A program made the translations under genes and the position numbers. DNA of 64,000 bases from Cliona cf. orientalis (taxonomy: Eukaryota; Porifera; Demospongiae; Clionaida; Clionaidae): positions 5,044,292-5,108,291 of the forward strand of contig OZ005697.1 in NCBI GenBank assembly GCA_963930775.1, written 5' to 3'. Position 1 is the stretch's first letter. Every line of letters begins with the position of its first letter. Of this stretch, positions 1 to 63,725 are shown piece by piece. The notes beneath the pieces were generated by a model. That model was given only the letters and a program-made list of their open reading frames with translations, did no database searches and was not told the origin of the DNA.

Positions 1-59
1 ATTCATCAAATCAATTGTATATGCCAGAACCAGATGTTCAAAAAATGGCCATTTCTCAT

Positions 60-91
<32 letters not shown>

Positions 92-520
92 TCATTGATA
101 AATTACACTAAGTGCATTAAAAAAGAACAGAAACAAGTATAAAAACAATTGAATAAAATTGAAGAATGAAGTAGGGATGGCAGGATCAAAAAGTACACAA
201 ACAAGAGATATCACAACTACTATACATCCCTACGCTTGCTTTTTGAGGAATGCAAAAATAACCAGTAATAATGCGATTGAATCAAAACTGATAAACCCAA
301 ACCATCGTGACAACTACATAGGGAACAACCTGAATGTCTCCCATATACCACACTCAACAAACACGTTGACATTATTAAAATTAATAGGTGCATAGCTAAT
401 AGTCGAGAAAAGCAAGCGGAGGGATGTATAGTAGTTGCAATATCTCTTGTTTGTGTACTTTTTGATCCTGCCATCCCTACTTCATTCTTCAATTTTATTC
501 AATTGTTTTTATACTTGTTA
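1..520 (+). mobile_element. Composite element, copy 1 (truncated, internally deleted)
   Basis: The first copy of a repeat family seen throughout the window. It enters mid-body at the window edge, passes through a (TTTC)n microsatellite at about 61-92, then jumps directly to the inverted-arm module. The arms lie at about 131-238 and 405-519 and are near-perfect reverse complements, each carrying GTAGGGATGGCAGGATCAAA and a ...CTATACATCCCTACG... inner part. Compared with other copies it lacks most of the body between microsatellite and arms. Open frames on both strands here are translations of the arms and are not genes. Confidence 0.85.
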
Positions 521-3102: not shown

Positions 3103-3167
3103 TGAACTTTCTTTTTATTTGTTACTATGGTACATTTAAATTTTGTTGCTAGATGTAGTGCATTCTA

Positions 3168-4094: not shown

Positions 4095-4160
4095 CTAGAG
4101 AGCTCTAGTTATGGTTTGTGCTGCTGGTTTAACAGCTACTGTTGTGTTTTGATCTCATAG

Positions 4161-9622: not shown

Positions 9623-12600
9623 CTATAAAATGAATACATCAATAAAATCCTTCGCACACTGCTTCCAGCAATAGCACACTATGGGGCATGAGAATGCTGA
9701 ATATAATACTATTACATATTTCCTGTTGCATCTGAAGCTATTAAAAAGTCTGTATACAATCATAATTATAATGTTAATCCCCAGCAGCTGCATGTTATAA
9801 TGGTACATGTGGCAAAAAGTCGTCTGAAAGTTAAATCGTAATTATTGCGTCAATATACATTAATTCTGTTGTATACCGTGTTTATGTTAACGCAAGCTAA
9901 AGCAATAATCACGATTTTAACTTTCGCGTAATCTTCTGGTAAAGGTCAGCACTCTACATTAAGACAAGTATAAAAAAACAATAAAATTGAAGGATGAAGT
10001 AGGGATGGCAGGATCAAAAAGTACACAAACAAGATTTGTAAGGCATAAGCATCTGCTATACATCCCTTCGCTTGCTTTTCTCGCCTGATTATTATGCACC
10101 TAGCTATTAGCTAATATTGATGTATTAATTTTGTCGAGTGTGGCATGTGGGAGACATTCAGGTTGTTCTCTGGTTGTCACAATGGTTCAGGATAGTCAGT
10201 TTTGATTCTGAGTTGTATTTAATTTCTGCACCCCTCAAAAAGCAAGCGTAGGGATGTATAGCAGATGCTTATGCCTTACAAATCTTGTTTGTGTACTTTT
10301 TGATCCTGCCATCCCTACTTCATCCTTCAATTTTATTGTTTTTTATACTTGTTTCTGTTCTTTTTTATTGCTCTTAGCATAATTTATCAATGCCATCTTA
10401 AATGGCTTGCTCATTCAACCGTTCTCAGTGTAATTTAAGTAGCTAGTAGATGGGAGGTACCGAAATTCGCGCGTGCGCGAAAAGTCTTAGCCACTCCCTT
10501 CAAGGTGGCTGACAAAGAAGGCTACCTAGGTAGCGGTGTGTCTCTTGAAGTTGTGAACTGGCTTCTTTAATATGCTGACTGCTGAGGCCGAGAGCCTCTT
10601 GATACCTAGTTCACTGTATAGCGCTCAGCTCGCACTGGCCTAGTTAACTAAGCTATAGCTAGCTCGCGCAGGAGAGCCTGGCGCCTAGCTCGAAGCTAGA
10701 AATGAGCGCCGCGAGTGTCTGAGCGCTGAGCGATCTAGCCTCGTCCCCAGGCTCTCTTGGGGGAGGGGAAAAGAGAGCCTGGTAACGACTGCATGCGCAT
10801 GCGCGAACCCTTACCAGCAAAACATGGTAAGGCGGTTTTTATAGCTAAACGGCCTTTCGAGGGGACAAAAACCAACGTTTGAGTGATTTACCTCATTTAA
10901 GCCTCCTAGACACCATCACTAGCCGATAGCAAGATACTTTTCGAGTGCTTGGGCGACTTTTGAGCTTGACTGGTAGTATACGATCAAGTAGTCCACGGAT
11001 AGTATACGGAGATTTTGGCGCATGCGCATGCAGTCGTTACCAGGCTCTCTTTTCCCCTCCCCCAAGAGAGCCTGGGGACGAGGCTATGAGCGATCGAGCT
11101 CGAGCCAGGCCAGTTACATTGTAATTGTACGCGTTCCGGTATCGCAGTTCATGCTGCATTGCGCGCGCCACGTCCGCGCCCCTGACAGTAGTCACATGAT
11201 TTCACCATGGCAACCATATTCCGAGCATGCGCATTGTATGACAAAATGGCGTATCAGACACACCCACTAATTAATGCGCCGCCACTAGCTGTCAAGATAA
11301 CGCCAAACAAACGTGCCATGGACCTGCGCGCTACAAAATAGAGTGGATTTATACGAAAACTAAGGCGAGCGGTCCAGACAGTCTTGAGTTAGCCCTGATA
11401 ATGAAAAAGAAAGAAAGAATGAGAAATGGGATATTTTTCAAATATCTGGTTCTGGCATGTACAATTGTTTTGATGAATAATCTTGGTCTTGCTAGATGCA
11501 CAATTTCCTGGAGATTCTGATTTTCACACTTAGAAATTTCACAAAATTACCTATTTTGAGATATTTGGGTATTTGTAATGTATTACATATATGGCATATC
11601 CGGGCCATCCCTACTTATAGAGTCTACCGACTCTATGATAATATTATTATGAAAAATCTTAGAACGCGAGTTTTCTTGCGCTAATTAGATCCTGCGTTTC
11701 ATTAGCATAAACACGGTACTTAGAACAGACTAGACAATAACAACATAACTGAGATGGAAACATCCCAGAATGTCTAATCCCAAAATGTCTAATGGTCAAA
11801 ATGTCTACACTCAGTATGTCTAATCCCAGAATGTCTAATAGACTGTTAAGGTACCATTAAATTGCGTGGGCGTGAGGTGGGGGATATGACACCTAAACCA
11901 CATCAAAGTCATTAGTGAGGTGCATGTTATGTAACCACGCCCTTTTAATTGCACAGGTCTCAGGGGTGTGGCTGCTAGAGCCGGAAGTGTTCATTTAATA
12001 TCCTCCATGGACCGGAAGCCGAGCCGGAAGGGAGGGGCCAGGCCACGCCCAAAACAGCCCCACCCTGTTCCCCAAGGACCACCATTCTCAATCAAGTGCC
12101 TACTAACCACCGGATGTCCACCGGAAGCCCACAATCAATCCCAATTAAAACACACAGCTTCCTCAAGGCCAAAACACACACAAACACTTGGAGGCCGTTC
12201 TGCCACACCGCCCACGCAAGAGCTCACCTCATTTCCTGTGTGGGCGGAGTAACAACACGTCATCGCAACCACATCCGCTTCAAACCATCGTCAGCTTCCG
12301 TCCAGCCGTACAGGCCCCTCGATCGCACCGCCGTACAGTGCCTCATTAACAGACATGGCCTCACCTTTGACCTCCTGCCACGCCCCCAAAGCCTCCTCGC
12401 GGGGTTCAAAGGTCACCACCGCTTCCGGGACACGCCCACCTATCGCCGAGGCCAAGTCCCAGGCGCCGATGTCCAAGCACTGGCCCGTGAAGCCACGCCC
12501 AATCGGAAGCAATAAAACCTGCATTAACGCACACGCACACACTCCACACAGTGCCAGGAACACGCCCACATGCTTAATTAGGCCTAATAAGCTTTTTTTT

Positions 12601-15600
12601 TTTTTTTTTTTTGTCGTTGCGGTTAATAGTTAAGAAAGAATGCTTTGATCTTGCTTTGATGTGGGCAATTACCGGCCTTTTCTTCAGGGGCCACTTCCGG
12701 TCGCTAATTACATGCGCATAATCATCCCTGGCCGATTCTGGACACGCCCACCTTCGACCAAAAGCACTCGTATGGCCTCTTCGGCCATGCCCCTTCACGA
12801 TTCGCTAATTGAATTAGCCAATCCTGACGCTCACGCCCACGCACTTTAATGCTACCTTAATTGGATCAAGGCAAACCAACCCAGTCAAAGTGCATATGTC
12901 AAGCATTCAGACCTTGACCTTTTTGACATCATATGAGTAGCTAGCAGTAGAGTATTCAAAGGGGAAGCTTTGGGGAACAGGCATGATACCACTATCACTA
13001 ATAATATGGAGATCATCAAGACCCAAAAAGGAGAAGTGCTTATTTGGCAAGGAAGCAAATTGACCCTCAACCGCGTACAATGGCTAGTGGAAAGAAATAC
13101 TGGCGATGTTGCAAGCGAACATGCCCAGCTAGAGTTACCACTGAGGGAGGTGAAGTGTTGCAGCAGACGAATGGTCATAATCATCCTGTAGATGGTGTTG
13201 AAGCACAAGTGGAGAGTGAAGCACAAACTACGAAAGCGAGCCAGGGAGGAGGTTACACCCATTTCCAGCATTTACAATGATGCATTAGTAGATATAGCTG
13301 CTAATTCAGAGGAAGGTGAATCTCTGGCTGGAAGGCTACCCACCTTTCCATGCTTGAAGTCCTCCTTGTATTGCTCTCGCAGAAGCAGGTTGCCCCCTCT
13401 CCCTCGGAGCCAAGATGTCACATTTGAAGGTCAGTGGCAGAAAACATTATCAGGTGAACAGTTCCTTTTGCGCCAAGAAGATGATATTCATGTTTTTGCC
13501 ACCACTGAGAGCCTGCACTTGTTAGCTATAGCAGAAGCTATATACGTAGATGGCACCTTCAAGATTTGTCCACGGCTCTTCTACCAAGTGTTTACAATCA
13601 ATGCCTTCGTACATGGCCAGCAGTTTCCTCTTATGTATGGACTGCTACCAGGAAAATCACGAGACATACAACAAGTTCTTCATGGTAGTGAAAGAAGAAG
13701 CCATGCAACATGGCATTAGATTTTCTCCTAACGAGATCATGGCTGCTTTTGAGTTAGCCCTAGTGCAGTCCCTTGAGCTTCAGTTTCCAGGAGCTCGTAT
13801 TCATGGGTGCTACTTCCATTTTGCTCAGTGCCTATGGAGGAAGGTTCAAAGCCTAGGGTTGGTGGAGGAGTACAGGGAGGATGATTCTATCCGGTGCTTT
13901 ATTCAAAAAAGTGCTGCCATTGCTTTCGTCCCACTAAACTTTGTCAGAGTTTCTTGGGATGGGCTAAAAGCAGAAATGCCAGATGATGAGCGAGCGGAGA
14001 GCTTTGCGATCTACATTGACCAGACATGGATGAATGGCAACTTTAGACCACGCATGTGGAACTATTATGCCCACACTGGTCCAAGAACGAACAATCATTT
14101 GGAAGGGTGGCACAACCGCATGAAACGAATTTCGAGAAAGGCACACCCCAATCTCTACGAGATCTTAGAGCTCTTTCAGCAAGAACAAACAGCCACTGAA
14201 GTAGCAATCCAGCAACTCGAAGCAGGTGGTGTGCGAAAACCAAAAAGAAAGAAAGTGATACGACGTGAAGACAAGATCAAGTCTCTTGCTGATGAACTAA
14301 CTAATGGAGAAAGAGACATTGATTCTTATCTAACTGCCATCAGACATTGTGTTGTTTCTTTTGATTTCAGTTAGTTTTTTAACACAGTTACATAGTTACA
14401 TACACTCTGTAAACTTTTATTCAATACTATTAATTAGTGCCAATTATTTAATGATTAGACATTTTGGGATTAGACATACTGGGTGTAGACATTTTGACCA
14501 TTAGACATTTTGGGATTAGACATTCTGGGAACGATTCACTGAGATATTGTGCAGGAAGTGATGTTGCATATGCAACATACTTTGCCTCAGGAAACAGCCA
14601 CAAGCTAACTTTCTAAGCAATGTATGGCATCATGGTATGAGACTGATGAGTTGATCACATGCAACGTTGTATATGTTGATAACAACTGACTGTATGATTC
14701 GGGATTGCTTGCTCCTGTCACCCACAGAGAGTGGTTGGTCTTGGGATGTAGACCGGGCAGCTTCACACATCCTCTTTCACCACTGTATTTAGTTTATATG
14801 TAAATATAAATGTATTCTTATTGTCAATTGGCAGTTTTCAGATGCTGTGTGAGTAGGGTGTATAATACGTATCGTGGTCCAGCGTTCTTGTCCCTGTAGA
14901 TCATCCCATTTTTGACAGCAGGTTTACTTGGTGTAAACCTCCTTGGAAGGTTTTAGAACCATGTTTGACATATTTGAAGCCATCAGCATGTCAATAAATC
15001 GTGATCAAGTGAGGTCACATACAATGTTTTTCAAAAAAACAGCATTCTGGAGAGCAAGTACAATAGCTAATCGAATACAACGCATGATCCAATAATATTT
15101 AATACAGGAAATTAGCATTAAATTTTTATGAATTCTCATAAGGCCACTCAGAATTAACTGTTTGTTTGAACTAATGCGACCAACAAAAATTTAAAGCATT
15201 CAATAGCTGAGTTTACTACAGGCATATATGCCGACTCATGCAGACTATTAATAGGACTGTCTTAAAAATGTATTTTTAAGCTACCACACAGCACAAATCT
15301 CTATACAAGAAACACTGACACTTGTAGTTAAAATTCTTTGGTTAAATTATCATCCGCTCAACCAACCGACCCTACTATTTCACGGTCATGTTATTTCAAA
15401 TAAACAATTGATTCTGTGATTCTGCGTGGCCTAACGTATATCATAGAGTTGGTAGACTCTATAAGTAGGGATGGCCCGGACACTCCATATACATATTATA
15501 TATATAATACATTACAAATACCCAAATATCTCAAAACAGGTAACTTTATGAAATTTCTAAGTGTCAAAATCAGAATCTCCAGCAAATTATCTATCTAATA

Positions 15601-17640
15601 AGACCAAGATAATTCATCAAAACAGTAGTATATGCCAGAACCAGATGTTCAAAAAAAGTAGCCATTTGTCATTCTTTCTTTCTCATATCCAGGGTTAACT
15701 CAAGACTGCCTTGATCGCTCATCTTAGTTTAAGTATAAATCCACTCCATTTTATAGCGCGCAGTGCAGTGGCATGCTAATTTTGCGTTATATTGACAGTT
15801 ACGTAATCGTGGGTGTGTACGATGCATTAACGATTGGGTGTGTCTGATACGCCATTTTTGTGATATAATGTGCATGCTCAGAATATGTTGCCATGGTGAA
15901 GTCATGTGACTGTAGTCAGCGGCATGTGCCAGCCCGCCATGGCATCTCCATGCCACGTAGCTAGCGCATATTGCTAGCCTAGCCAGAAGCGTTATTTACG
16001 GGCCCGCCAGGCACTAGCCTCCTAGGCCAATGCAAACGCAGCTAAGCTATAGTGCTGGTGGCTAGGCTACACGGTGATAGTAGTATACGCTGAATCAATC
16101 GTGAACCTCCAAGGAGTGGCCGTTCCTCGGGGGTGGCCCATCAGCCAGCTAAGTACTACAGTGCCAAAGATAGTCGATAAATCAGGTAGCTACTACCAAC
16201 AAAGCCTCCCTAAATCGAAAAGTCTCATGGCAGCTTCTTTGTCAGCCTGCCTAGGCACAGGAACGTGAGGGGCGTGGCTACGAATTTCGGCACCTCCCAT
16301 CTTCTACTGGGTGGACCAGTATTAAAGAGTTGAAAGAGCAATCATGTAAGATGAATTATACTGAGAGCAATAAAAAAACAGAAACAAGTATAAAAACAAT
16401 TGAATAAATTGAAGGATAAAGTAGGGATGGCAGGGTCATAAAGTACACAAACAAGATTTATAGGGATAATCACATCCACTATACATCCCTACGCTTACTT
16501 TTCTCGACTATTATGCACCTATTGATGTCGACTTGTTCATGCTAGCTATATTGTATCCTTTGAGTATTCTTGACTTGCATGTGGGAGAAAATTTGTCCCT
16601 GCCACTGATGGCTCAGGATAGTCAGTTTTGATTCAGTCGCATTACTTTTGCACCTCATGCATATAGTTACTCAAAAAGCAAGTGTAGGGATGTATAGTGG
16701 ATGTGATTATCCCTATAAATTTATGACCCTGCTATCCCTACTTTATCCTTCAATTTATTCAATTGTTTTTACACTTGTATATGGAGTGATCGACAACCTG
16801 TACCAGAAAAACGCATTTTTCAAAATTGAAAATTATCTTTTTTCCATGCGTTGTATTAGATTAAGTACGGTAGTCCCAAAAACACCAGCTTTTCAGAATT
16901 AATTTGTCTTCTTTTGGTGTGAAAGCTGTGAGGTGTTTCATAAGTGCTCCAACTCTGTCGGTAAGTAGTTTCTTGAAAATGGTGTCACAATTGAGTTGCC
17001 CTAAAATTTCGAAAGAAGTGCATATCATCCTTTTGAAAGATGTTGAATAGTGATGGGCTTCTTGCTCTCATTTGCTGCTGCAGACCAAATAGAATTAACT
17101 TAATACTTCTTGGTGAGCTGCATTTTTAAATTTTCTGGCCAATAGTCCAATTCACTTGCATCATCCGTATGTTGTATATCCTCGCTACATGATGAAGATT
17201 GTTGTAGTGTGCCCTCCATGCCTCGAAGTTGTGTCGAGTCCAGCAGTTGTTACTTCTGTATTTTGGGAACAATACCAGCAGCAGTAACACTTAGTTCTTT
17301 GTCAGTGGCACTGTAAAAGATTGGGAGATGATGGTTGAATGTCGCCCTTTGGCGGCTCTGAGCTAGGGCCTGCGTCTAGTGTTGCCAATATCAAGAGTCT
17401 GGCATAGGCATTGTATTAATCATAGAGTCGGTAGACTCTATAAGAGTAGGGATGGCACGGATACTCCATATATATAATACATTACAAACATCCAAATATC
17501 TCAAAACAGGTAACTCTGTGAGATTTCTAAGTGTCAAAATCAGAATCTACAGTAAATTGTTGATCTAACAAGACCAAGACCATTCATCAACTCAATTGTA
17601 TATGCCAGAACCAGATGTTCAAAAAAATAGCCATTTGTCA

Positions 17641-17672
<32 letters not shown>

Positions 17673-44600: not shown

Positions 44601-47600
44601 CTGAAACATGCATGTAACATGCAGGGATTTGGGACGTTTTTCAGGTATGGGACATGCATGTTACATGCATGGATTGGTACCTAAATTTCATGCATGTTTC
44701 ATGCGTGTTCCATGCATGAAAAATGTGGATATTTCATGCATGAAACCTGCATGTTCCAGGTGTATTCCATGCGTCGTACAAGCGTATTCCAAGCATGATA
44801 CAGGCGTATTCCATGCGTGGTACAGGCGTATTCCATGCGTGATACAGGCGTATTCCATGCGTAGTACAGGCGCATTCCATGATACTGGGATATTCCATTC
44901 ATGTGTGCATACACAGTACAGGCATATTTTAATAACCCTTGGACAGAGTACTTGTACTCTACTTGCTGTAAGCATAAGGCACTGTGCTCCTGCATAGGCA
45001 AGTATGCTCTTTATAGATATGTAGATACTGGCTTTAAGGAAAATAGACAAAGCTGTTGGCACCTATAGACATGCATATTATGCTGTAAGATATGAGATTT
45101 AGAGTAGCTCTTACATAATTTTTATAGCAAAGGTATACACATTCTGTCCCCCAAAAAACTACAGGTATATGAATATCTCAGCAGTATGTTACTACCCACT
45201 GATTAGCAGCTAAACCATATTCAGTGTTCACATAGCTACATGGCATTGTATACATACTGGCCCGGAGTCCCCCCCCCCCCCCCCCCCCCCCCATTTGATC
45301 TTTTACATATTGTAGGATACTTCAGTAACTAGCACTGAGACCCCAAGGTAAGGACTGAAATAAGGGACCACATTCTTATCTGTAACCTTGATATCTGTAA
45401 TGCTAGCTGGGGACTACTTTCAAACTAAAGAAGCTCCTTTTATTTACACTCTTCCAGCCAAATAAACCAAACTTACACCTACACTATAATTATGGAAATT
45501 AATTTTACATGGGGTATACAAAACAATGTGTTAATTTGGTATGGCTCTCCAAGTTAGGCTATATAGTAGCTACTTACCTTGGAGCACTAAAGGTTTCATA
45601 ATGTCTCACACTTTCAAATCTGCAAAGCAGCTGCTTCTAATCAGTATGATGTAATGTGGAACTTCATGCATGTAACATGCATGGTTCAGGAGTGATAAAA
45701 TCTCACGCATGTTTCGTTTCATGCATGTTTCATGCATGGTATATCTGTCACACGTGTTTTATACTTTCATGCATGTTCCATGCATGTTTCATGCATAAAA
45801 TACACTTTCATGCATGTTTCATGCATGAAAAATGCATGGAAGTAGCTTCCATGCATGAAACATGATATTCCATGCACAAACTGTCCTGAAACATGCATGG
45901 AAAACGCATGAAAGTCACTTCCATGCATGAAATGTGCTGAAACATGCATGTTTCAGGCGCTCCATTTTGAGTAGGGCATGAACATTGGTGTGACTGAAAT
46001 TGGGATTGATGCTTAATTTTGTAAACTTGGTAACCAAGCGATTTAGGAGCTGATATTAAATTTAGCATTGTTCATACAAGTTCAAAAGAAAGTTAAGCTT
46101 ATCTAATAAAGATTGGTGTGGCGAGAGCCACACTCTGCCATACCCTGGCTACGCCACTGCTATCAGCATAGCTATGTTATCAGAGAGCACATGCAGCGAC
46201 ACTATAGGTGACATCGTGTAATTGGACATCCACTGCTGTTTCTTTGCTGCAGTGTATTTTTCCCCAGATAGGTTATAATTTACACTTAAACAAGTCATCA
46301 GATGAATTTTTTTTATACTTAATGGAACAACTATGCTCAGATAATTAAAGCAAGTACAGCAGCAATAAGGCCCACATCTATCGTAACAGATGCAGCACTT
46401 AAAGAGTTTTTGATTGTGCAATGTACGCACACAGAAGTACATAATGAGAAAAAGAAGGAAGGAGTGTGCACACTTAATTAAGCTTAAAGTTGACGATCTG
46501 TTCTTGAACGGCTGTCTGTCCCACAGCTCTGCAAATCAGACATGGTGAGCCTAATCAAAAGGTTTCTGCTTCATTTCGAGATGACTTTGGAGGACTACTG
46601 CCAACAGAAAGTTTGTATGAGCCCCGATGGCTCTCGGGAACCTTAAAGATCACTGGTTAACTTTACATGTGGTAAAGTGTCACTAGTATGGGTAAAAATT
46701 TGGGAATTTTAATTAAGTGTACACATGGTTGTGTCACGCTCGTCCCCCCTCTCTTTTCCTGATTATGTGCTCCTAACACACACTATAGCCAAAAATTAGT
46801 GTCTGCAATGCATCAAAGGTCAGCCAAAATCCTTCAATGATTGGATAGTACTAGTATCCACTACTGCAACATTGATATTGATCAAATTCAGTCACTGTAA
46901 TAGCAGCCTGTAATGCTGGTACAGACTAACTGTATTTTCCCGAAATTAGACTCTTTAACTGTCTGAGTATTGATGCTTTCAGACTGCGCTACTTTTAGCT
47001 ATAGCAGGCAAAAGCTTGAGTCTAAAGTTGAAGATGATAATTACGATATGTGATCAAACACCATTATACACATACAATACTCTACAGAGCTTATTTGTAT
47101 ACACATAATTATACCAATTGACCTGTGGAAGTTTTTGATCAGATCCTTTGAGCAGAGATATGGAATTCTGAAAGAAGATATGAATTTGGCTTTTTTCGCT
47201 TTGAGTAGTAAGATCAAGTGTTGTAAGAGAGTCAGCATTTTCATTACAGCGTTGCCGAGAGAAAGTAAATCCAACCACTGGTAATTTATCTCTCCTTTCA
47301 AGCATTTTAACGAGAGATAACCAAATACTTTTTTCCTGGTAAAAATAACAAGATAAATCAAGCCACATACAACACAAAAAATTAGTATGTGTACCTGCTT
47401 TGGATTTACATAATGCCTGGATCTTGGACCAAAATTTGAAGCTCCTTTGTTACCTCTCTCTTTTTTGGCATCCAAAGCATGACGGTACCTAATTCAAAAT
47501 GGGTCAAGCATAACATGTAACAGCATTAAATTTATGTATGCAAATATTAACCCCTGTGCATTAAATTTCTTGTCAGCACCAACAATTTCAAAGAGTTGAT

Positions 47601-50600
47601 TATCAGTTTGTTTACTATCACCAGTGTAGAGAAAATGCTTCAGAGGCACTGGACGTTTGTACGTACTGACAACATATATCCTCCTTTGTTTGGTACGTCT
47701 AATGGAGCACAATAGCAACAATCAATAGCAGCTCATAATAATTGAGTAATTTACCCAATCCAGTCGGCAAACTCCATGGCATTCGGTACAGTGGCAGATA
47801 GCAAAATTATACCAACATGTCCCGGCAGCATAATCAATATTTCTTCCCATACCACTCCCCTCTGAAATTTGAATGAATGAGCAACATAGATGAAAACTTC
47901 AACACAATAATAGTATGCAAGCAAAAGCTCTTATCCCCAAATACCGTATCTGGGTTCCAGCAGCAATGCCATCTCATCAGCATGTATGCATTAAGTACTC
48001 TACTATCAAGAATAAATAATAAGGAGCTGGGGAAGGGAGTATTGAACACGCTATATACTCCGTAAAGATGTTTTCGCAAAGTCATGTGCCAGGAATCACA
48101 AAATTGATCAATGACAGCACTCGATTCAAATGGTATATTGTGGGCGTGGCCTCTAGTGTAAGCTTATGCCAGTGCATTTTGATCAAAAACGGCAGCAGAT
48201 CACAATATAAAATTAATATTCGTGAAGAATCTAGCATAAAACTCACGAAAAACGCCTCTATTCTTCACGGTTCTAAGAATCAAGAGTTTAGCCCCTTGGG
48301 CTAGTCATGTGCACACAGCGGCAAGTTGCCAAAAACATACTCTTCCCCTCCTTGTTATTTACTCTTGGTATTATATATGCAACTGAAAATCTATGTTTTG
48401 TACGTTAACGATTCACTGAAATCTTCTCACTTTTATAGTAAGAGGCACATAAACAGTGACGTTTCCATTCCATCTAAATGGAATTCATTCCATGCCGTTC
48501 ACCGTTCAATTCCAATTCTGCACACACAAGCGATTCAATTAACATGTTGGGCGTATCTTACCGATGTGTCAAGAACCAAAGCTAGCTTGTTTGCTAGTGG
48601 ACTAGAATCGATGCTTTCACACTGCCGCTGTCTTCTAAATTTCGCTGGGACACTGTGCTGCTGCCACTCTTCAACTTAAAATGTATTTTGTGATTGTTGC
48701 TTGACTGTGAGCGGTTTTTGCTATCATCAATCGATCAATCTTGGATCGCTGATCAATTCAAATCGCCTTTACAACTAGCGGATCGACTGACATAGTACTC
48801 CTTTCGGCTTTCTTGGACTCCTCTGGTGTATAGTTCAAGCTACCCACGTCGATCGCATCATTTGTCACCTGCTCCGCCTCCCGTTCCATTCCCGTTTTTC
48901 TGTTGAATGGAACGTGCATGCGTTTCCATTTAAACGGAACGGGACGGAAACGTCACTGTTTTTATGCCCTCCTACTATAAATTAATGTATTGTTTTCATT
49001 ATCATAAACAATTATAAACTTAGTGTCCACCCCATCAGCTTCTCCCACAAACAAAAAAATCTTAGATAGCATCCAGTGGATGTGAGTGGAAGTGGTCACG
49101 CAAATACATTTACATGGTGACCACTACCGAATATACATATGCACACACAATGAATAAGTATGTTTGGTGTCACAATCATGGGATAATGTGGCTGATATGC
49201 ATGACCACCTATTAACAGTACATGCTCAGAGAAAATCTAAACAGTATCCTGCATGTACAGCATTGCCCTTTAGTAATTTAGTGCATATGTGCAGATGAAA
49301 GTAGGTTCAGAGTTCGTTCAACCCCTCACTGCACTGCACGTCAACAGCAGTTGCTCGAACTCACCACTAAGAACTGTGCAACAGCAACGTTCTCGCTTTG
49401 CTCAAACATCGAATTTACCACACTATTGACAGAAAACAGACCTCACCTCTTGCTTTGCTTGAGGCTCAGTGGTATGGCTTAGCAGGCCTCTTGAAACGTG
49501 TGGTACTTTGCGCTGTTCGCTCAAGAATGCCTATATAGCCTCTCTAAGGCCACCCATCATTGTGCACACGGCCCTACAGTTCTGACCAATCCTGAGCCTT
49601 GTACATAGTACAGAGTTTTTCTCCCCCCACACGGTGGCGCCGCACATTTATAGCAACTGGGCGTGTCTAAGATGTGTATCTATGACATTTTGCTACTGGT
49701 AACTCAATGCATCTCCATGCCCTCGCGTAATAATGTGGCTGATATGCACGATCATCTATAACAGTACATACTATTGTAACAAAATTTATCGTCTGAAAAT
49801 TACTAAACCCTCAGCGCATGCGCGAGTTATGGTAGCCATTCTCTGTGTGTTCTGTTACCTTACTAGCTACCACATGTAGGAACTTGAGTTAAAAGTGCGG
49901 ATTGCAGCTGTGACTGTAGTAGTAGTGGGGCATGAATGATAAGCAAGTACATGAACTACAGCACAGTAGCTATTATAGTGTACCTGCAGTGTGGCTTCAT
50001 GGTCTAACGTACACTACACAACTGTAGAACTACATATACATGTTGTACAAGATATTGTAACTATATACATGTACATGCATGTCAACGTTTAATCCAGAGA
50101 GAGGTTTATAATACTGTGCTGCATGCTCTCTTGACGTAAACTAGAGTGAACTGTCACACCCATATTGGAACTGCTATACATGTATATATATGTAACTTGA
50201 ACACACTTTGTTCTACAACAGTTATAATATTATGTACTTCTACCTCTGGGTCATTCACGTAGTGGACCTCATCAAATATGACCCATTCCAAATCTCTGAT
50301 GACATCAGATCCATTGTAAAGCATAGACCTTGAACAAAACAAGGATACATACTCACAAGCATAAAAAACAATGAAATTGAAGAAGGTACATATGTATATG
50401 GCAGGGCCAAGAAGTACACAAAATAAGATCTGCCGATGAGAGGGATAATCACATCCACTTCGACCAGTCAGGCCAATCAGATTGCTCAAATGGAGGTTGA
50501 TAAATCAACTTATCAAACCTACAAGAGATTTATCAACCTAACAAGTTATTTATAAAACAGTTGTGAGTACTTTGCTATGAATCTCACGAAATTTGTTCCA

Positions 50601-53600
50601 TAGGACATCACATTTCATTCAGTGGATAGCTAGCAGCGCAGCCTAGCCAAGCAGTAATCAGGTCATGAGCATTATTTAGAACATTTTGACGATCTGTACC
50701 AGCTAGTTCATAATAATTACCAGGACACTTGGTTATGCACATGTCCTGCATGCATTATGCATATATTGAGTAGACACTGTTAATAGGCGTTGCTTTGATG
50801 GCCATGCAACAAAAAGGCTGACGCTTGTGAAGCATGTCCCTTGAGTTGAAGCTTACTGAAGCCAGTTTTCGCCAAATTTGATGGATTTGTTGTGCTTATG
50901 AATCGCTCATGATCAGGTGCCTGTAAGTTTGAGATATGGTGAGTTTTGTGTTAACGACGATGACAATGACGACATGACCAATTACAAAAATTACCCCTTG
51001 CGCATGCACACAGGGTAATGAAATTGAAGGATGAAAGTACATGTAGGGATGGCACGGCCAAAAGGTATACAAAACAGTAATCACGCCCACTATAGATCCC
51101 TATGCTTGCTTTTTGATTTGCTATAATTATGGGGTGCAGAAGTAAACTAACCAGAAAGTAATGTGACAAAGCTGATTCGATCCCCCCTCCCCCCAAAACA
51201 AGCTGAATAATGTGAATTACCCTAGTGCTACGTATGGAAAAAAATCACTCTCTTATCTGATAAAGATTGTCCGCCAATCGCTCCATATACCGTAGTGTCC
51301 CGGGCAAATGCCCACTCCCAGGTAAGCGGTCATGTAGCAGCTTCTATATAAGCGCATGGAATTTTGATCCTGGGTAAGTGCCCATGCGGGCCAAAACTGC
51401 AAGTTATGTATAAGCACCCATGGGCATTTACCGCCATGGACACTACTGTATGCATGTTATGAGAATTCGTAAAAATTAATGCTAATTTCTTACGTTAGAT
51501 TGGATCATATGTTGTACTCGATAACTACAGTAATATTATTTCTCCCACATGTACAGAAGTTTCAAATTAGGGAAAGCCCCAATACATGCAGGTAGACATC
51601 AACTGGTGCATGATAATCAAGAAAAGCAAGCATCTAGAAGTATAGGTTATACACCAAGGTGTAGGTGGCTATGATAAATCACTATAGCTACTGTGACTGA
51701 GGTGTATAACTGACTTCTACCATGGTAAACTATGCTTAGTAGTATTTAATACTGCAGCTAGAGTACCTATGCTGCCGTTCGCTTTGTCATTCAGGGCCGT
51801 CTGTATCGATGAAGAGCACTAGAGCCGTTCGAACGCAGCCATGATCGAGCGACTGCGATAGATATCGATGATTCAAGTGGTTTCCTTCCTTGAAGCCTCC
51901 CAGAATCTGACCAATACTGTGAGCATGGCCTTTGTCATCTCTTGCAGTGAAATCTCGCTGGTCAAGTCTAAAAACAACGGTTCTTCTTGCTGAATCAAAG
52001 CAGCCATGAAACTGTTAAATTGATTGTCGACCTTGAATCCAATTACTCCATCCACTTGCAAGCGCACGCCCCACTAGTAGTAGCACAAATCAAACAATTG
52101 ATGACCCGTGCCCTATGAGCATGCGTTGCCCACCAAATCACCTGACTTTCCTGTTTGCTAGCACAACAGCAAATGGTAGTTTCGTTGTTGCCTTTCATAC
52201 GTGAAAATGAGCGATAACAAAGACAATAAGTCCCTAGATGGGGATGGTTCGTCGAAGAATGGTGCATGTAGAGGAAGCAATTGAGCAAGGCTTACACGAT
52301 CCAGCAAAGAAGGCTCATTTGCTACGACTGGGGATCGGGGATTCGGATAAGAACCGGGATGATACCTCCACCCAAAGGGGCGGTAGGACGCTCACTTGCC
52401 TTGGTGCCAGTTATCCCGATCTGCTCCGCTCTACCCTTAGTAGGATGTCTATGAGCGGCAACCAGCAGTGTGCAATATTTCCACCAGGTTCTCAAATTTT
52501 CCCTAACCCATACTTTCCATATCCTCATCAATGGGTGAGTGTTCATGAACCCCCAGTACGGCCATCACAGTGGTCTTACATGCCCACGGAGGAACAACCA
52601 AGAATGACGATGAGGAAGAGGAAGCATTTCAACCACACATTAATTGTCAGATAAAGAGCGCGAGGCGATCATGAAGGACTTCCTGAGACCACAGTGTGAT
52701 GCACTGACTACTCCCAAGATCGATAAGAATCTTAAGGAGCAGCTGAAGTCAAGGAGTAAGGATCCCCACTTGGGCTGACCTATACTTAACAAAGATGCTG
52801 AAATGTCTCCTGGAGATGTGCTCCTCCTGATTCAAAGAGCATTAGTGCTAGTGGGAAGCACCTTCCATGCCATTAATATGGAACGGAGAAGGATTGCATG
52901 GTGACGCTTGAATCCAAAGCTGAAATCATTGGCCAGCGAGGATTATAGGAAGCGAGAGACCGATCTATTTGGGCCGGGCTTTCTGGAGAAAGCATCCAAA
53001 AGGCTGGAAGCAGACAAAACCTCAGCTAAGATCACTTCACAACCCTCAACTAGCCAGAAAACAGGTTACAGCAACAATGCAAAAGTAAAATCCTTGGACT
53101 GTGGAAAAGGAGATTTGCGTAGTTTTTTGGACAAAGGCGCTTCCGCTTGGCGTGGGAGCAGGAACTATAGGCGCCCACAACCATGCAAGAATCAAGGAAA
53201 GAGCACACAAAAGAAGATTTACTTCAACAGTTGCCGTCAGCCCAAGACAGCCAGCAATACTCCCAAAGGGAAGTGAAGAACTTTCATACACCAATACATT
53301 TGAGTATACCCTTAATTACCTGGTTTGGACACCCTGCCCCCAGCGGGTCGGATACAACTGGTAGAAGCTGACAAGCGACCCTTGGGTGCTAGAGGATCCC
53401 TTGGAGCTAGAGCTATGGCCTTTCCAGCTGGTACCTCCCACTCCCAACATGCTGAACAGCAAGGGCCAAGTGCTAGTTCAGACAGAAGTAGAGAAGATAC
53501 TCAATATTACTGAAACATGCAATCTGTCATGTGGCCCCAGCGAAGAGTCAGTTCCTGAGCAGAGTGTTTCTGGTACAAAAGAAAGACGGGACATTCAGGC

Positions 53601-56600
53601 CAGTGATAAAATCAAAGGTCTGAACAAGTTCATGACAAAAAGCCACTTCAAGATGGAGGGCTTTCATATGCTGAAGGATGTTCTGCAGAGAGATGACTGG
53701 ATGTCATCGGTCGACCTCAAGGATGCCTACTTCTCCGTCCCAATAGCCCAGCCTCACCGGAAGGTGCTACGCTTTGAGTGGAAGGGCAACATATACGAGT
53801 ATCAGTGCCTACAGAGCCAGATCTAGTCTTGGAGACAGATGGGGCGCTCGCTGCGATGCTCGAATACAAGCCCGGGCTCCTATTTCTCTCCTGGCTCTCA
53901 AGACCCGGCTTCAAAACGAGACTGGCATGTAAATGGGATTGGCATTTATTTATGCAGTACCGTGCTGATTCCTGGCTGCATGGTGCACACAGCGCCCACG
54001 CAGTAATGCAGCAGCCTCTTTAGAATGACTTTCTGCCTCCTCTATAGCCTTTAGAGCAGCTTTAGTACAGCACAAATCAGTCACTCATTCTCTTACTCAG
54101 CCTTCTGACAAGATAGAGACACTAAGATACTAAGTGAAGAGAAAGTCGAATTCAATGCACTCATTCAATAGTGCCAATTATCAAGAAGGTGTGGTCTCAC
54201 TGGAGTACTTAGAACCTAAAATTTTCTTCTTTAACGAACACAAAATTTCTGGTGCAAAAAAAAATCATAGCACTTTAGGATAATCTCCTCATATACATGT
54301 ACCTATCTTCACAAGTGCAATTGTAATCCTCTGTGATTTGCACTCCCACTGAAGTGTGACGCATGCAAATTGTAGATACAGGTTGCAGCAACTGGTGCTA
54401 GCTATATATAGCCCAACAGTGAGCATGGATAGCTGAACTGTCCCATCATGGCTGCACAGAAAGGCTTTGTGGTAGTGTGGTTCATATTTTCATGGTAGCT
54501 GACAAAAAATGGCAACATTCTGTACCGTGCAAAAATTACTGCTATACAATAAAGCCGTGTATCTCATACACCTTCTTTCCTGTAAACTTTTAATGAGGAT
54601 ATTGTACTGATAGGGTTCATCTTATAAGTTGGAGCACTTACCGTAGAATTTCAGTTGTCATTATGAGGCATGGAGCTTCTGTCCGAATCTGTACATCTCC
54701 AGTCAAAAGGCCTATAGTCTGTTCATCAAATTTCTGCCGAAAGTCCCTGAACTTTTGATTTGAAAGAGCTTTAATGGGAGAAGTATACACAACTCTGCAT
54801 TGTAAAAAGACAGTTATAATTATATCATGTCAAAATTAATGAAGACAAGTTTTGCACTACTGCACACCTAGTTTTGTGCTTTGTGGACAAAGCAATGGCA
54901 TATTCTGCTACCACAGTTTTCCCAGCAGATGTGTGGGCAGCCACAAACACACTGTCGTGTTGCTCCAAGTGAAAGATAGCCTGCTTCTGGAATAAATCCA
55001 GTTCAAATGGAAACTGCGTACAATGAACAAAACCAGGTCACAACAGAAATAGCCTTATATTCATGATACACACTTACTTTAAATGCCGGATTGGGAACTT
55101 TACTCTTAAATTCATCACCTGACATACTAAAATCTACTTTTACACTCCATTGGCGTATTTTGGGCTTCAAAATGGATGTAGTCTTTGTTAATATGTTTGT
55201 CTTGGAAATTGGAGTGAACATTAACCATAATTATGTGGATATATTATTACTCATGCATGGCTATATGTAGCATACCCTATTCAGCACACCATCAAGCATA
55301 TTATCCTTGGACTCCAGATCTGTTACCTCCACCCTGCCACTGCCTAATCAAAACAGAAGGGGCACATAATAATATGCAACCATCCACGATAACTTAGTAT
55401 GCAAGATGATCATAACAGTAATTAATTTAAATTGTCCAAAAATATTGGAGGCATGACACACCCAATCCAGTACAGTAGTCAACGTGTACTAGCACACTAT
55501 ACACAAGCTTTAAGTCATAAGACAGATCATAGCTGTACCAGTGATTAATTAACCAGTAAAAAGTGTCATACTACCACACATTGTCACAATCACAAGGTAC
55601 GGTACCAGTAGTCTACATGCAAGCTATTAATCAGAAATATATAGTTAAAAGACTGCCCTCCTTTTGTATGTTGTCACTGGCACAATATATGTGTACCTTT
55701 TGATGTACAGTAGCAGTAAAAAGAGGTGACGTTTCCATTCCGTTCCATCCCATCCAGACGCTGTCGCACCGTTCATGCTAGCCATACTGTTTCCGTTCCG
55801 TATGCATGCGTGCACAATTGGTAATTGGGTGTGGTCTTTCGACATGCAAAAAAAATGGAAGGCCACAGCTCGTTCATTCGCCGACTAGAGAATCAATAGT
55901 TTTATACTGCCACAGTCTTCTAAACTGTTCTAGGGCAGTTCACTACTGCCGCTCTTTGATTTTGAGCGATGAGGCTCCACTGGGTTTGAAGTCCGCTATG
56001 GACATTGATTGACCTCGCGTCGCCAATGATCACCTCCAAATGCAATCGGTTGGATAGAGCAATGCTTCTTTTGGCTTTCTTAGGCTCTGGCGGCGTCATT
56101 TTCATGCTAGTTACGATTGAGAATAGTCGATTGCACGTTCTGTCGTGTCAGCCTCCGCCCATCCCATTTCTATTCTTGTGTATGGGGAACAGCCGTTTTA
56201 CTTCTATCTCAACAGGGCGGAATGGAATAAAAACGTCAGCTTTTTTGGACTCCATTCCATTATGGCTAACAAAGCAGCTTAATATGAATTTCTTGAATGC
56301 TATCACAGCATTACTGGCTGTTGTTAGCAAAAGAGTTCAGATAATCGAGGTTTAAAGTTGGGTCTGTACATACAATTTTCGTGTTCAAGGATAGGAGCAG
56401 GAAGAACTTCGAACCAGCAACTGTGGTCACATATGTACACTGATAATGTGTTCAATGCCCATAAGTGGTGCCACTTGCACTCAAAAGTTAGCAAATATAT
56501 AGACGGTGAACATGCATAACCATTCATAACTTCTCACAGAGTGCCGTGTGTATAATATTGGTTTGTTTACAGCATATCAATTCTAATAATCATTCTGTAG

Positions 56601-59600
56601 CTCTTATATATGTGGCTCTAAAATGTAAAATCAGAGCATTATATACTTTATTCATGAAGTGGTTCCCAACTTAAAGTATCAGTCTAATAGCGTGATATTA
56701 TTTCTCTTCAAACATGAAATTAATGCTAAATGTATTAAGCAGGCCAGCATTACTTTTAAGGGGGCAGCGACTGCACCCTCCCCACCAAACTTGAGAGTAG
56801 CCATCATACATGTAGAAAGCTGTGATCTCCTTTATCACTACTATCTAAATAATTATTGAGTGTACATGTACTAATACTAGGAGACATACATCATTTAAAT
56901 CGTCACTGCTTGACTTCATAAATAATTAATATGATGGAGTGATGTCTCCTAGCATTCGTTTTCCATATATCATTACCACATTTATTTTGGTGTTTTTTGT
57001 CACTGCTACCCATACCTTTGCCTCAATTTTTACTTTTTTTATACTTGTTTGTGTTCAGGAGCGGATCCAGGGGGTCATGGGGGCAGCTGACCTCCCCTCT
57101 CAAGGCTGATCATCTTGTAGCATCTTGCATCATTCTGCTGTGCTTGACTAAACAGCCAGCTTCAGCACTCTAACTTCAACTAATGAACCTTGAGCTGACT
57201 ACAAAATGGAGCTACATGTAGAAACCTGTTTGTAAGATGAAAAAGTTGGATTCCATTGACTTCTCTGACTGTTTGTCTCGTTTGCGACAATGATGTCGGT
57301 GTGGCCAAAAATTTCGCATGCGATTCCTTATTCTGACCCCCCCCCCCCCCCCCCCCCCCCACCACCTGATATCCTGGATCTGCCTGCCCCTGTGGCATCC
57401 ATTGCACTCTGTGCATGTATATGCATAGTAGTTGCCGAGGCGTGGTTCTCGAAATGCTTGATAAAGGATGAAAACTGCCGGGCTTTTGCACAATCACTTC
57501 TGAAACTGAACTGAATGATATGAAAAGTAGCTCAAAATGTTGATGTGGCACCGGTTTAGACTGCAGCGAAAAGAACATGAAAATGCTATTTTTGTCACCC
57601 TCGGGTTCAGACTCTCTGTGCATATCAATAGAGTGTAAAATCACTCATAGAACGCAATGGTCCAGATTAGAAGTTTTGAAACTGTTCCGTTGTCGAGATA
57701 TTCTCATTTTTGTAACGTAACGTCTGGGCCATCACTACTAATTATTATAGTCTACCGACTCTATGATACATGTATAACTGAACAAATCATGCAGGGCAGT
57801 AACTTTCAAATTCATGCCTCATCTGTTATAAGCATTATGTGTGGACTGTCACAGTATTAACACGCTGTCCAGAGGAACCACCAAAATTTGAGAGCGAATT
57901 TGAGAGAAAGGTAACTTTCCCACATTTTTGTTTTAAAACACTTCGATCTTCGGTAGTAATACACTGCTGAGATATTCATATACCTGTAGTTTTTGGGGGG
58001 ACAGAATGTGTATACCTTTGCTATAAAAATTATGTAAGAGCTGCTCTAAATCTCATATCTTACAGCATAATATGCATGTCCATAGGTGCCAACAAGCTTT
58101 GTCTGTTTTCCTTAAAGCCAGTATCTACATATCTATAAAGAGCATACTTGCCTATGCAGGAGCACAGTGCCTTATGCTTACAGCAAGTATAAGTACAAGT
58201 ACTCTGTCCAAGGGTTATTAAAATATGCCTGTAGCTGTACTGTGTATGCACACATGAATGGAATATCCCAGTATCATGGAATGCGCCTGTAGTATACGCA
58301 TGGAATACGCCTGTATCACGCATGGAATACACATGTACCACGCATGGAATACGCCTGTATCATGCTTGGAATACGCTTGTACAACGCATGGAATACACCT
58401 GGAACATGCAGGGTTTCATGCATGAAATATCCATACTTTTCATGCATGGAACATGCATGAAATTTAGGCACCAATCCATGCATGTAACATGCATGTCCCA
58501 CACCTGAAAAACGTCCCAAATCCCTGCATGTTACATGCATGTTTCAGGAATCATGCATGTAACATGCATGAAATTTCGTATCGTCACTGGAAATTTCATG
58601 CATGGAACTTTCTGGATTTGGGCGCATGAAATGTCCTGAAACATGCATGAAACATGCATGTTTCAGGCGCTCCATTTTGAGTAGGGTATTCTTCCATCAT
58701 CCTACTACACTCGCTGCAAATTGCGAGCCCCGCCCACTTCTGGTATGGGTAGGATGAGTGCATGTTTCAACTGCGGTCGAAAAACGCCATTTTATGGCAG
58801 TCTTGGGCGGATCACCACTCGGAATAAGAGGGCTTGCTTCTAACGTTGGATCTGTGAAGTAGAAGGCCCAAACTGCTATCAAACCAAGTCTGAAGCCTAA
58901 CTGGCTTGAAATAGTGGCAGGTTGAAAAGTGATAAAAATCGCAGTTATACCCCTTTTCTCAAATTCACTCACAAAAATAATAGTTATGTACAATTTCTCT
59001 TGTGCACTTGCACAGACCATGAACAAAAGTGTTTGAATCTATAGATGCCTCTGGGCAATGGGGCTTGAACAAGGGGAAAGAAATTGCATGGTTTGTCTTT
59101 TGGTCTTTGTCTGGAATCCTATACAAATGAAGATAGCTAGCCTAGATGTATACATGCAGAGCAGGTAGCATAATATAATATGCATGCAATGAAATGTGGC
59201 CCCAGATGCTGCATGGCTGACCGTACCTCACCTCGTATGTACATGTATATTATCTCAAATGCTAATTACATTATGATACATTGTACACTAAATGCATAAT
59301 ATTATATCCCTAAACATTCATACATACCTTCTGGTGCGAGAATCTCTTCAGTCCTTAATTCCTACAATTATTTGACAGGCACAGTAAAATAATGGTTTCT
59401 TACTGACAGTGTATACATATTCTTTCTGCATGCATTGGGCACACAACCAGGGAGGGGGCTTATTCGCAGGATCATGACATTTCTGCATGCATGAATGGCA
59501 ACCATTACAAAAGTGGCTAGTGTGCTATAGCTGTAGTTAGCTACATGTATACTACACTGCTTTATTGGTTTACATTTAGAATAATCATAGAGACAGTAGA

Positions 59601-60834
59601 CTCTATAAGTAGGGATGGCCCGGATACTCCATATATGTAATACATTACAAAAATCCAAATATCTCAAAACAGGTAACTTTGTGAAATTTCTAAGCGTCAA
59701 AATCAGAATCTATACCAAATTATCTATCTAACGAGACCAAGATCATCCATCAATTCAATTGTATATGCCAGAACCAGATGTTCAAAAAATAGCTATTTGT
59801 CAAGGTTTCTTTCTTCTTTCTTTCTTTCTCATTTCCATGTCTAACTCAAGACTGTCTGGACCTCTCACCTTAGTTCTCATATAAATCCACTCTATTTTGT
59901 AGCGCGCAGTGCAGTGGCACGCTAGTTTGGCGTTATCTCGACAGTTACGTAATAGTGGGGGTGTGTCTGATACGCCATTTTGTGATATAATGCGCATGCT
60001 CGGAATATGTTGCCATGGTGAAGTCATGTGACAGCGCCTAGCCACACCCTAGGCAATCGAGAGCTAGCTACGTAGCTACTAGCGCATGCAGCGATGCGCT
60101 GGATCAATCATGGATATGAAGGTGCAAGGCTCGAGGAACGGTAAGGCGCTAGGCATAGGCGAGCTACTCGCTAGCCGTGCAATGCTAGTGCTCCGCTGGA
60201 TCAATCATAGCATAGATATTATACTATCATACGAAGGCTCCGACAAGGCTCGAGGAGCGGTAACGTACAGATCATAAAATTATGCCAGGTACTGAGCTAG
60301 CTGCTGCCAACAATAAAACTTAGAACTCGGTTTTCTCCCTAAGCGGAGTCTCATGGGCCACCTAAATAATACTATTATACAGGCATATGAACGCAAGTTG
60401 ATGAGGGGTGTGGCTACGAATTTGACACCTCCCATCTTGTGATAAGATGGCATTGATAAATTATACTAAGTACAACATAAAAAGAATAGAAACAAGTATA
60501 AAAACAATTGAATAAAATTGAAGAATGAAGTAGGGATGGCAGGATAAAAAAAAGTGCTTTTTGAGGGGTATACAAAAATAAAATAAGTAATAATGTGATT
60601 GAATCAAAACTGATAAACTCGAACCATTATGACAACTAGGGAACAACTTGAATATCTCCCACATACCGCACTCAACAAACACGTCGCGTGACATTAATAG
60701 GTGCATAATAGTGGAGAAAAGCATGCAAGCATAAAGGAAGTATAGTAGATACGATTATCTCTTGTTTGTGTACTTTTTTATCCTAGCTGCCATCCCTACT
60801 TCATTCTTCAATTTTATTCAATTGTTTTTATACT

Positions 60835-60868
<34 letters not shown>

Positions 60869-61896: not shown

Positions 61897-63460
61897 CTAT
61901 GGACAACAAGTATATATACAATTGAAGGTGAATTCAGTAGGGATGGTAGGTCTGTGAACATTTCATTGGGCTAATTTTCCATGAATAGATGCTAATATAT
62001 TATACCTGTTCCATATGAAATATTATTAATATTCTTCATGAAATACACGTACATGTACCCATAAAATTAATGAAAACTAGAGTTCTCTAGAGCACGAAAC
62101 TCTTGGCACGTTGCATGGCATTACATGTAGCTGCACAAGCAGGCAATGATAACTCAATATTATATAGTAGCCTCAAGCTTAACCATAGCTCTTTACCCAC
62201 TTTTCAATGTTCCACACAGAATAGGGGGGTAGAGGGCTTGGGACGAGGCTAACATTATAGGGTAGCAGTGTTGTTCAAGATTCAACAGCTCACAGCAACA
62301 ACAACCCTGATGTGTTGTATTGAATTCCGCAGCAGGGGCGTGTCCAGCAGGGGGCTCGAGCACCCTCCTAAGGTCTGGCACAACAACCAACTCAGTAGCT
62401 GTGTGACAAGTATTGTTATACTGATTAAATAACTACTGGTAGCTTAGACCAACAATAAACTTATTGGACTCACTCTAAACGGCAGTTTCATGTCGCTACA
62501 ATTAAGGCCTAAAACAGCCTTCTTTGTCATCAAGCTATCTTCAAGAATGCATTAGTGAGGGGCATGGTCAATGCTTTCGGGGCGTGGCTAAAATTTTGTG
62601 CACACACTGGCTCAGATCAGCACCTCCCTTCTTCACTGCGGTGCCAACATCAAACCTGCTTTTCTCACAGTCGCCTCCTTGGAGACATTAGCTTCTTCAA
62701 AACATCTTGAAGATGGTGCGAGACCTCACTGCAAGTACACTGAGCAGTATTACGTACATGTCCAATATTATCACTGCGATTGCTCACTTGGGTCCAAGCA
62801 TGTATACTATAGCCAGAAAGTCAAAGGGTATATTAAAAGCCAAAAAGCTTATCCACCACTGTGCTCCAATCAGAGATGAGCCAGTGGATCTATAGCTTAC
62901 CCTTAGAGTTGAAAAGAAGCCACTGTCGTCAGCTCCATCTGTCGAAATCTCGTCAGGGAGCGAGAAAGGCGGCAGTAATCAGCGTCGACGATTATTATGG
63001 TGCATGTACTGAGGGTTAATAATATGTACATACATACCATATATAGCGCATAACACACAACATTCTATATACGTACATGTATGGTTATGCTACCGCTATA
63101 GCAGGGAAAAGTCAAGAAGCATAGAATTCATAAACACTACAGCCCAGGCCAGCATGCACAAGTATATAATAGTAGTGCTAGTGGGTGTGCATGAGTGCTA
63201 TAGCACATTCCAGAGTGACCTCCACAAATGAATATCACTACAAAGTTCATGAACCATACGAATAGCCATATTACACACGGCATATACGCGGTTCAATACT
63301 CTCCCTCCCCCTCTTGATATACTCTTGCCTAAAGTAATAAGACAACCCACAGGAATTTGTATACCTATCATGTTAGTGATTACACAGTACTATGTGGTTG
63401 AAGCCTATATATTCCCTATGTCAATGGACAACTGTTCTACAAACCATGGTATCTGAACCA
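61897..63460. repeat. Repeats upstream of SKIV2L exon 1
   Basis: About 62085-62265 is the GAG(C/T)TCTCTxGAGCAC unit also at 19055 and 34747. About 62640-62930 resembles 19970-20190 (CATGTCCAATATTAT...TCACTTGGGT). 63000-63110 is related in reverse to about 3650-3730. No missing SKIV2L N-terminal exon was recognised. Confidence 0.45.
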
Positions 63461-63725
63461 CTATACATCCCTACGCTCGCTTTTTTAAGTAGCATGGGGA
63501 TCATAAATGAGTGACAGGGTAAATTTCTCCCACATGTAAGTCAAGAATACTTCAAGCATAGCATGACTTGAATAAGTCGACATCAACAGGTCTGTAGAAA
63601 AGCAAGCGTAGGGATGTATGGTGGTTGTGATTATCTCTTATCCCTAAAAATTTTGTTTGTGTACTTTTTGGCATTGCCATCCCTACTTCATCCTTCTATT
63701 TTATTCAATCGTTTTTATACTTGTA
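63461..63725 (+). mobile_element. Composite element, copy 8 (arm/spacer remnant)
   Basis: A short left-arm stub (CTATACATCCCTACGCTCGC at 63462), a spacer in the majority orientation and a full right arm (63600-63725) ending TTTTTATACTTGT. Body and stem-loop end absent. Confidence 0.75.

Follow-up and report, generated by a model that had tools for sequence, protein, structure and literature searches.

A Helitron2-like element of the sponge Cliona cf. orientalis with a long 3'-terminal hairpin whose spacer is found in both orientations

Helitron2 transposons are described as elements that start with TC, carry hairpins at their termini and contain an inverted repeat located 20-40 bp from their 3' end (PMC5148889), and HINEs are characterized by subterminal repeats, microsatellites, tandem arrays and 3' palindromes (PMC4067079, PMC7492417). 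In Helraiser, a canonical Helitron1, the 3' hairpin acts as the terminator, and circular intermediates have been reported (PMC4778049). As regards inverted repeats that exchange and convert, the nearest parallel that we found is Galileo (PMC3573991). Among the titles and abstract openings of the literature searched, we found no description of a Helitron-type element combining long arms with a reversed spacer, which is the arrangement reported here.

The window, i.e. the whole 64,000-nucleotide stretch of DNA that was analyzed (C9:5044292-5108291, in a genome of 216.8 Mb and 149 contigs), contains one interspersed element in seven copies scorable for orientation, plus a truncated eighth. The element looks like a high-copy non-autonomous transposon built like a rolling-circle (Helitron) element. 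From 5' to 3', it is composed of TC, a short hairpin (ATAGAGTC-GGTA-GACTCTAT), AAGTAGGGATGGC, a body, a body-side arm, a spacer, a terminal arm and CTTG. AAGTAGGGATGGC starts after the 5' hairpin, at nucleotide 23 of the 5' end, and GCCATCCCTACTT, its 3' mate in an asymmetric inverted repeat, lies 31-36 nt from the 3' end. The body is about 0.9-1.8 kb long, its most widely shared part being the first ~450 bp, which in most window copies includes a (TTTC)n microsatellite. No gene of its own was found in the element copies. The 5' end pattern has 1,692 matches in the genome at up to two mismatches, and the backwards-pattern control has 0.

In each composite copy, the two inverted arms are located at one end of the longer body. 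Since the terminal arm's outer end coincides with the end of the element (CTTG), the arms and the spacer constitute the 3' terminus of this rolling-circle-like element, a point that the first-pass annotation had missed. This 3' hairpin is oversized, with arms of 107-125 bp; in copy 4, the one copy that was folded, its folding energy is -157 kcal/mol versus a mean of -36 for shuffled sequences. The first-pass annotation described arms of about 110 bp around a spacer. The arm alignments span 104-125 columns in six of the eight window copies; copies 7 and 8 have a damaged body-side arm. The window spacers measure 113-184 nt.

Spacer orientation was scored with the body placed on the left (alignment match 2, mismatch -3), and the two states separated cleanly, with wrong-orientation scores of about 12-28: the copy 1 spacer scored 107 forward and 20 reversed against that of copy 2, whereas the copy 6 spacer scored 16 forward and 157 reversed against copy 2, and the copy 3 spacer 20 forward and 137 reversed against copy 5. 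The majority orientation is found in copy 1 (1-517, plus strand; body cut by the window start; body-side arm ~132-243, spacer 244-407, terminal arm 408-517), in copy 2 (9965-11638, minus strand, 5' end at 11638; body-side arm ~10238-10344, spacer 10080-10237, terminal arm down to 9965), in copy 5 (21518-22812, plus strand; body-side arm ~22437-22538, spacer 22539-22703, terminal arm 22704-22812) and in copy 7 (59585-60836, plus strand; body-side arm partly deleted, ~60491-60551, spacer up to 60735, terminal arm 60736-60836). The spacer is reversed relative to these four in copy 3 (15441-16777, plus strand; body-side arm ~16392-16502, spacer 16503-16673, terminal arm 16674-16777) and in copy 6 (32172-34280, plus strand; body-side arm ~33945-34050, spacer 34051-34175, terminal arm 34176-34280).

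The flip of copies 3 and 6 had been claimed relative to all other copies. A case apart is copy 4 (17420-18994, plus strand; body-side arm ~18609-18733, spacer 18734-18870, terminal arm 18871-18994), whose spacer belongs to a different subfamily and has the same orientation as that of L030 and the opposite orientation to that of L033a, two copies located outside the window. The truncated copy 8 (63449-63723, plus strand; body absent from the record; arm remnant 63449-63484, spacer 63485-63597, intact terminal arm 63598-63723) agrees with the majority, to which it had been assigned, solely on condition that the intact 3' terminus is taken as the outer end. Note that the body of copy 6 contains four near-identical tandem units of 113 bp (33174-33621) reminiscent of the central tandem repeats of HINEs. 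Two more 5' ends of the element lie at 28063 and 57766 (minus strand), and no hairpin arm was matched nearby.

Several other mobile sequences share the window. Transposase fragments of the MULE type (13192-14374), which score slightly below the cut-off for Pfam MULE and are flanked by inverted arrays of 15-bp tandem repeats (11762-11839 and 14453-14530), adjoin the 5' end of copy 2. A Tc5/pogo-type transposase is encoded in two overlapping frames at 42673-44108 (HTH_Tnp_Tc5, DDE_1), and a 14.2-kb element at 44451-58687, with inverted ends of ~740 bp (main pieces 96-99% identical) and rich in CATGCATG-type repeats, contains a weak reverse-transcriptase fragment at 53365-53826 that scores below the Pfam cut-off.

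The ends of the element define its target site. All 19 5' ends start with TC, which is part of the search pattern, and an A precedes 18 of them; a T follows 70 of 71 3' ends, which all finish with CTTG because it is part of the pattern (the body-less copy L108 contributes two of the 71, one from each side). The target thus consists of an A, before the initial TC, and a T, after the final CTTG, in AT-rich DNA. An empty-site search, in which the flanks of eight copies were joined into a single query and 40 candidates scored, was consistent with these ends: all 40 span the joined flanks of either copy 2 or copy 6, with 77-87% identity, and the empty sites of these two copies are uninterrupted copies of a host repeat. 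For the other six joined flank pairs, no junction-crossing match was present among the 40 scored candidates. No target-site duplication was seen at the copy ends or in the empty-site comparison.

We also found nine exact head-to-tail junctions versus 0 for the backwards pattern. One of them is seamless (CTTG/TCATAG), in agreement with CTTG being the 3' end; the linkers of the remaining eight start with T and finish with A, as expected from insertion between A and T into an AT-rich flank. Such junctions would be compatible with the circular intermediates of rolling-circle transposition. Head-to-head 5' ends were matched 8 times, at 7 places, which is little more than the 3-5 expected by chance, and we draw no conclusion from them.

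With respect to canonical Helitron1 elements, the element displays the 5' TC and insertion between A and T without a visible target-site duplication, and shares with Helraiser, as published, a 3' hairpin and head-to-tail junctions (circle junctions in Helraiser), but it ends with CTTG instead of CTRR, has a giant hairpin instead of a palindrome of 16-20 nt lying about 11 nt before the 3' end, and no gene was found in its copies (PMC4778049). The asymmetric or subterminal inverted repeats and the hairpins at the termini (the 3' one folded for copy 4) are features of the Helitron2/Helentron/HINE group. According to the account of Helitron2/FoHeli of Fusarium, these elements have in common with ours the TC start, the 5' hairpin, the AT-rich target and terminal inverted repeats placed asymmetrically, the 3' member being ~20-40 bp away from the 3' terminus. 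They differ from it in several respects: in our element, the 3' hairpin, with its 107-125 bp arms and 113-184 nt spacer, reaches the terminus, the 5' member of the inverted repeat begins at nucleotide 23, behind the hairpin, the 3' end is CTTG and not ATTTT, the target is an A followed by a T, and a partner protein is not linked to it (PMC5148889).

HINE/DINE-1 elements are similarly described as non-autonomous, high-copy sequences with subterminal inverted repeats, a 3' palindrome, an internal four-base microsatellite (TTTC in our case) and a tandem array (here the 113-bp array of copy 6); unlike the element, HINEs prefer TT or T-rich targets, as do Helentrons, and the 3' palindromes of mite HINEs measure 5-10 bp (PMC4067079, PMC7492417). 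Neither long arms nor a reversed spacer figures in the portions of these two HINE/DINE-1 descriptions that were consulted. The element does not match the TIR/Foldback plan, in which inverted repeats at both ends are accompanied by a target-site duplication. Judging from its sequence, the element may be classed as Helitron2/HINE-like; it is not filed as a proven member because the CTTG end, the target between A and T and the giant hairpin deviate.

The genome contains other Helitron-type sequences, with at least 150 scored Helitron_like_N matches, none of which was linked to the element as an autonomous partner. None of the 100 listed exact 5' ends of the element lies, by eye, near the seven Helitron_like_N matches in the covered part of C1, and ten Helitron loci of ~3.5 kb each contained no arm, spacer or 5' match to the element. 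Of the 150 Helitron_like_N matches listed, a large proportion falls, by eye, within ~15-36 Mb of C1, half of the largest contig.

We determined spacer orientation in three sets of copies outside the window. The first consisted of 78 hairpins drawn by similarity to copies 1 and 2, of which 75 were scored after leaving out L081 (body absent), L108 (body-less) and L073 (an inverted dimer): among these copies, closely related to copies 1 and 2, 73 had the majority orientation and 2, L004 and L007, were reversed. A further candidate, L053, was ruled out as a reversed copy, body sequence being present on its other side. The second set, which does not overlap with the 78 hairpins, was obtained with a query composed of the body and spacers all in one orientation, such that the strand alone reveals the state; the best 40 candidates per search were considered and about 13-16 of the 40 (by eye), whose spacer matched no query spacer, were omitted. 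Three of the 54 copies were reversed (C16:4484605, C12:3363332 and C5:6424975), or 4/55 with C6:4909220, an apparently reversed copy that is ambiguous since it sits in a nested cluster. The third set, twenty 10-kb stretches at preset positions, yielded four scorable copies, one of which (L033a) was reversed.

Altogether, 8 of the 140 scored copies (~6%) have a reversed spacer, 9/141 with the ambiguous nested case and 6/133 without the window, which falls short of the substantial fraction of both states that the first-pass annotation had named as support. The window, with 2/7 reversed, is unrepresentative when compared to the first (2/75) and second (3/54) sets. In addition, 16 c3-type flanks, drawn from 40 scored candidates that included copies 3 and 5, were submitted to a test that verifies the reversed state only: two were reversed (L119, L126), and the other 14, which have no body junction on that side, may be majority or body-less copies. 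None of the 16 is counted in the 140.

Reversed copies were found against c2-type, c3-type and c4-type relatives. That reversals turn up in several spacer subfamilies speaks against descent from one rearranged ancestor, the origin that the annotation had opposed to recurrent flipping. Two of the reversed copies, L004 and L007, which lie at different sites, are related to each other and have an altered body end in common, which points to one reversal inherited through transposition. Judged from these two copies, at least one flip appears to be older than transposition.

The arms of individual copies bear the marks of sequence exchange. Within a copy, the consensus arms differ at 0/111 (c1-type), 1/115 (c2-type) and 1/125 positions (copy 4 alone); between subfamilies, the consensus arms differ by 8-16 substitutions plus indels, and the subfamily-specific substitutions and indels are common to the body-side and terminal arms of one copy. 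We compared 37 copies of each of the two main subfamilies with 5,000 shuffles of the arms among copies, three copies per subfamily being omitted because of damaged or extended arms. Changes that the two arms of a copy had in common numbered 25 and 18, versus 2.0 and 1.1 after shuffling (p = 0.0002 each), and 15 and 12 of these mirrored changes, respectively, were found in a single copy only. In the c1-type subfamily, arm divergence was 1.4% within copies versus 2.1% between copies. In the c2-type subfamily, it was 2.8% within copies versus 2.7% (body-side arms) and 3.8% (terminal arms) between copies: within-copy divergence is not below that of the body-side arms, and homogenization is therefore incomplete there.

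A marker located in the inner part of the arms provides information on the breakpoints. In c2-type majority copies, the body-side/terminal pair is A/T in 28/37, A/A in 9/37 and T/T in 0/37. In the reversed copy 6, A and T are swapped together with the spacer, indicating that the inversion takes in the inner ends of the arms and that the breakpoints lie inside the arms. Note that copy 6 is the one clear reversed copy in which the swap is seen, as L004 and L007 are A/A, hence uninformative, and L081 has no body by which to orient it. In a spacer tree, which has weak support, the A/A copies do not group together but are scattered. Since subfamilies other than c2-type have an A in both arms, some of these copies may have kept an ancestral A/A.

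Rearranged copies point to exchange through the arms. L073 (C1:33133737-33134247) is an inverted dimer in which two diverged bodies face one shared hairpin. In L057, L080 and L089, c4-type body ends and outer arms are joined to c2-type inner arms and spacer, the outer change being present in both arms. L108 (C9:4855684-4856189) is a hairpin that lacks a body and is bounded on each side by a terminal-type end (A/CAAG...CTTG/T, the slashes marking the element boundaries). In Galileo/Foldback elements also, close and long inverted repeats are described as recombining, extending and exchanging between copies, giving rise to chimeras; Galileo, however, is a member of the P-element superfamily with repeats at both ends, whereas our element has its two arms at the same end, and we saw no target duplication for it (PMC3573991).

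The flip is thus real, it recurs across spacer subfamilies, and, because the arms exchange sequence, arm-arm recombination or hairpin templating, as initially proposed, is its likely cause. In the reading that we consider fairly probable, the element is a non-autonomous transposon of the Helitron2 type whose arms recombine, mostly by conversion, and occasionally invert the spacer. The element would insert between A and T in a Helitron2-like rolling-circle mode, by means of a presumed enzyme, and its oversized 3' hairpin would replace the usual short terminator hairpin. Being 107-125 bp long, inverted and close together, the arms would exchange repeatedly: conversion without crossover would keep both arms of a copy alike, and a rare crossover, or a template switch with equal outcome, would invert the spacer along with the inner arm ends. 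Transposition of reversed copies would then hand on the reversed state. We infer the recombination step itself as well as its setting, which could be a resident locus, a single-stranded transposition intermediate or an encounter between copies. The spacer flip is best read as a passive by-product of arm exchange. A programmed or somatic switch was set aside, as nothing in the one assembly analyzed speaks in its support.

Other origins of the reversed state were weighed against the same data. Host recombination could flip resident copies after insertion, independently of transposition, a possibility that we regard as rather unlikely. In its favour, reversed copies amount to 4/24 among the older c3-type versus 2/75 among the young c1/c2-type (Fisher p = 0.029), and the arms of copies 3, 6 and L033a are diverged. 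However, once the window copies, which had raised the question, are left out, the comparison becomes 3/22 versus 2/75 (p = 0.075), age is confounded by the similarity-drawn samples, older lineages also underwent more transpositions, and L004 and L007 are young copies with one reversal common to two sites. It is unlikely that whole hairpins were instead swapped between copies, by ectopic recombination or template switching through their palindromic arms, in either orientation and with no inversion within a copy. Such transfer would account for the c4-type body ends on c2-type hairpins (L057, L080, L089), for the diverged bodies of the L073 dimer and for the unusual body end of the reversed L004 and L007, but the body ends of copies 3 and 6 are of the common kind, and the mirrored arm changes, 15/25 and 12/18 of which are confined to a single copy, show that exchange takes place within single copies. 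Snap-back copying of a single-stranded 3' hairpin, whereby the terminal arm would be regularly rebuilt from the body-side arm during transposition and the flip would be a mis-resolution, strikes us as quite unlikely; it predicts one-way copying, with which the 28 A/T, 9 A/A and 0 T/T copies and the scatter of A/A agree, a signal that comes from one marker site and in which A/A may alternatively be partly ancestral.

Two further explanations were set aside. That the arms and spacer form an independent inverted-repeat MITE, inserted in either orientation beside an unrelated body, is very unlikely: the body-less L108, with its terminal-type ends on both sides, speaks in its favour, but the body lies on exactly one side in 75 of the 78 non-window hairpins, no target-site duplication was seen, and fresh insertions would not be expected to meet the body at a constant place. 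Hardly credible is an artefact in which the assembler turned the spacer between near-identical arms. The arms of L004 are indeed identical over 114 columns; those of the reversed copies 3, 6 and L033a, by contrast, are diverged, matching at only 101/119, 94/113 and 82/105 positions, respectively, the arms are just ~110 bp long, and one and the same state recurs in L004 and L007, at two separate places.

The family lends itself to quantification. Well over a thousand dispersed copies of a single long hairpin are offered by one genome, and since the arm pairs and the spacer orientation record conversion and inversion separately, the ratio of the two events and their timing relative to transposition can be counted. 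To our knowledge, the processing of the 3' end of rolling-circle transposons is still poorly understood; if arm copying is truly directional, the hairpin of this element would bear on how these transposons process that end.
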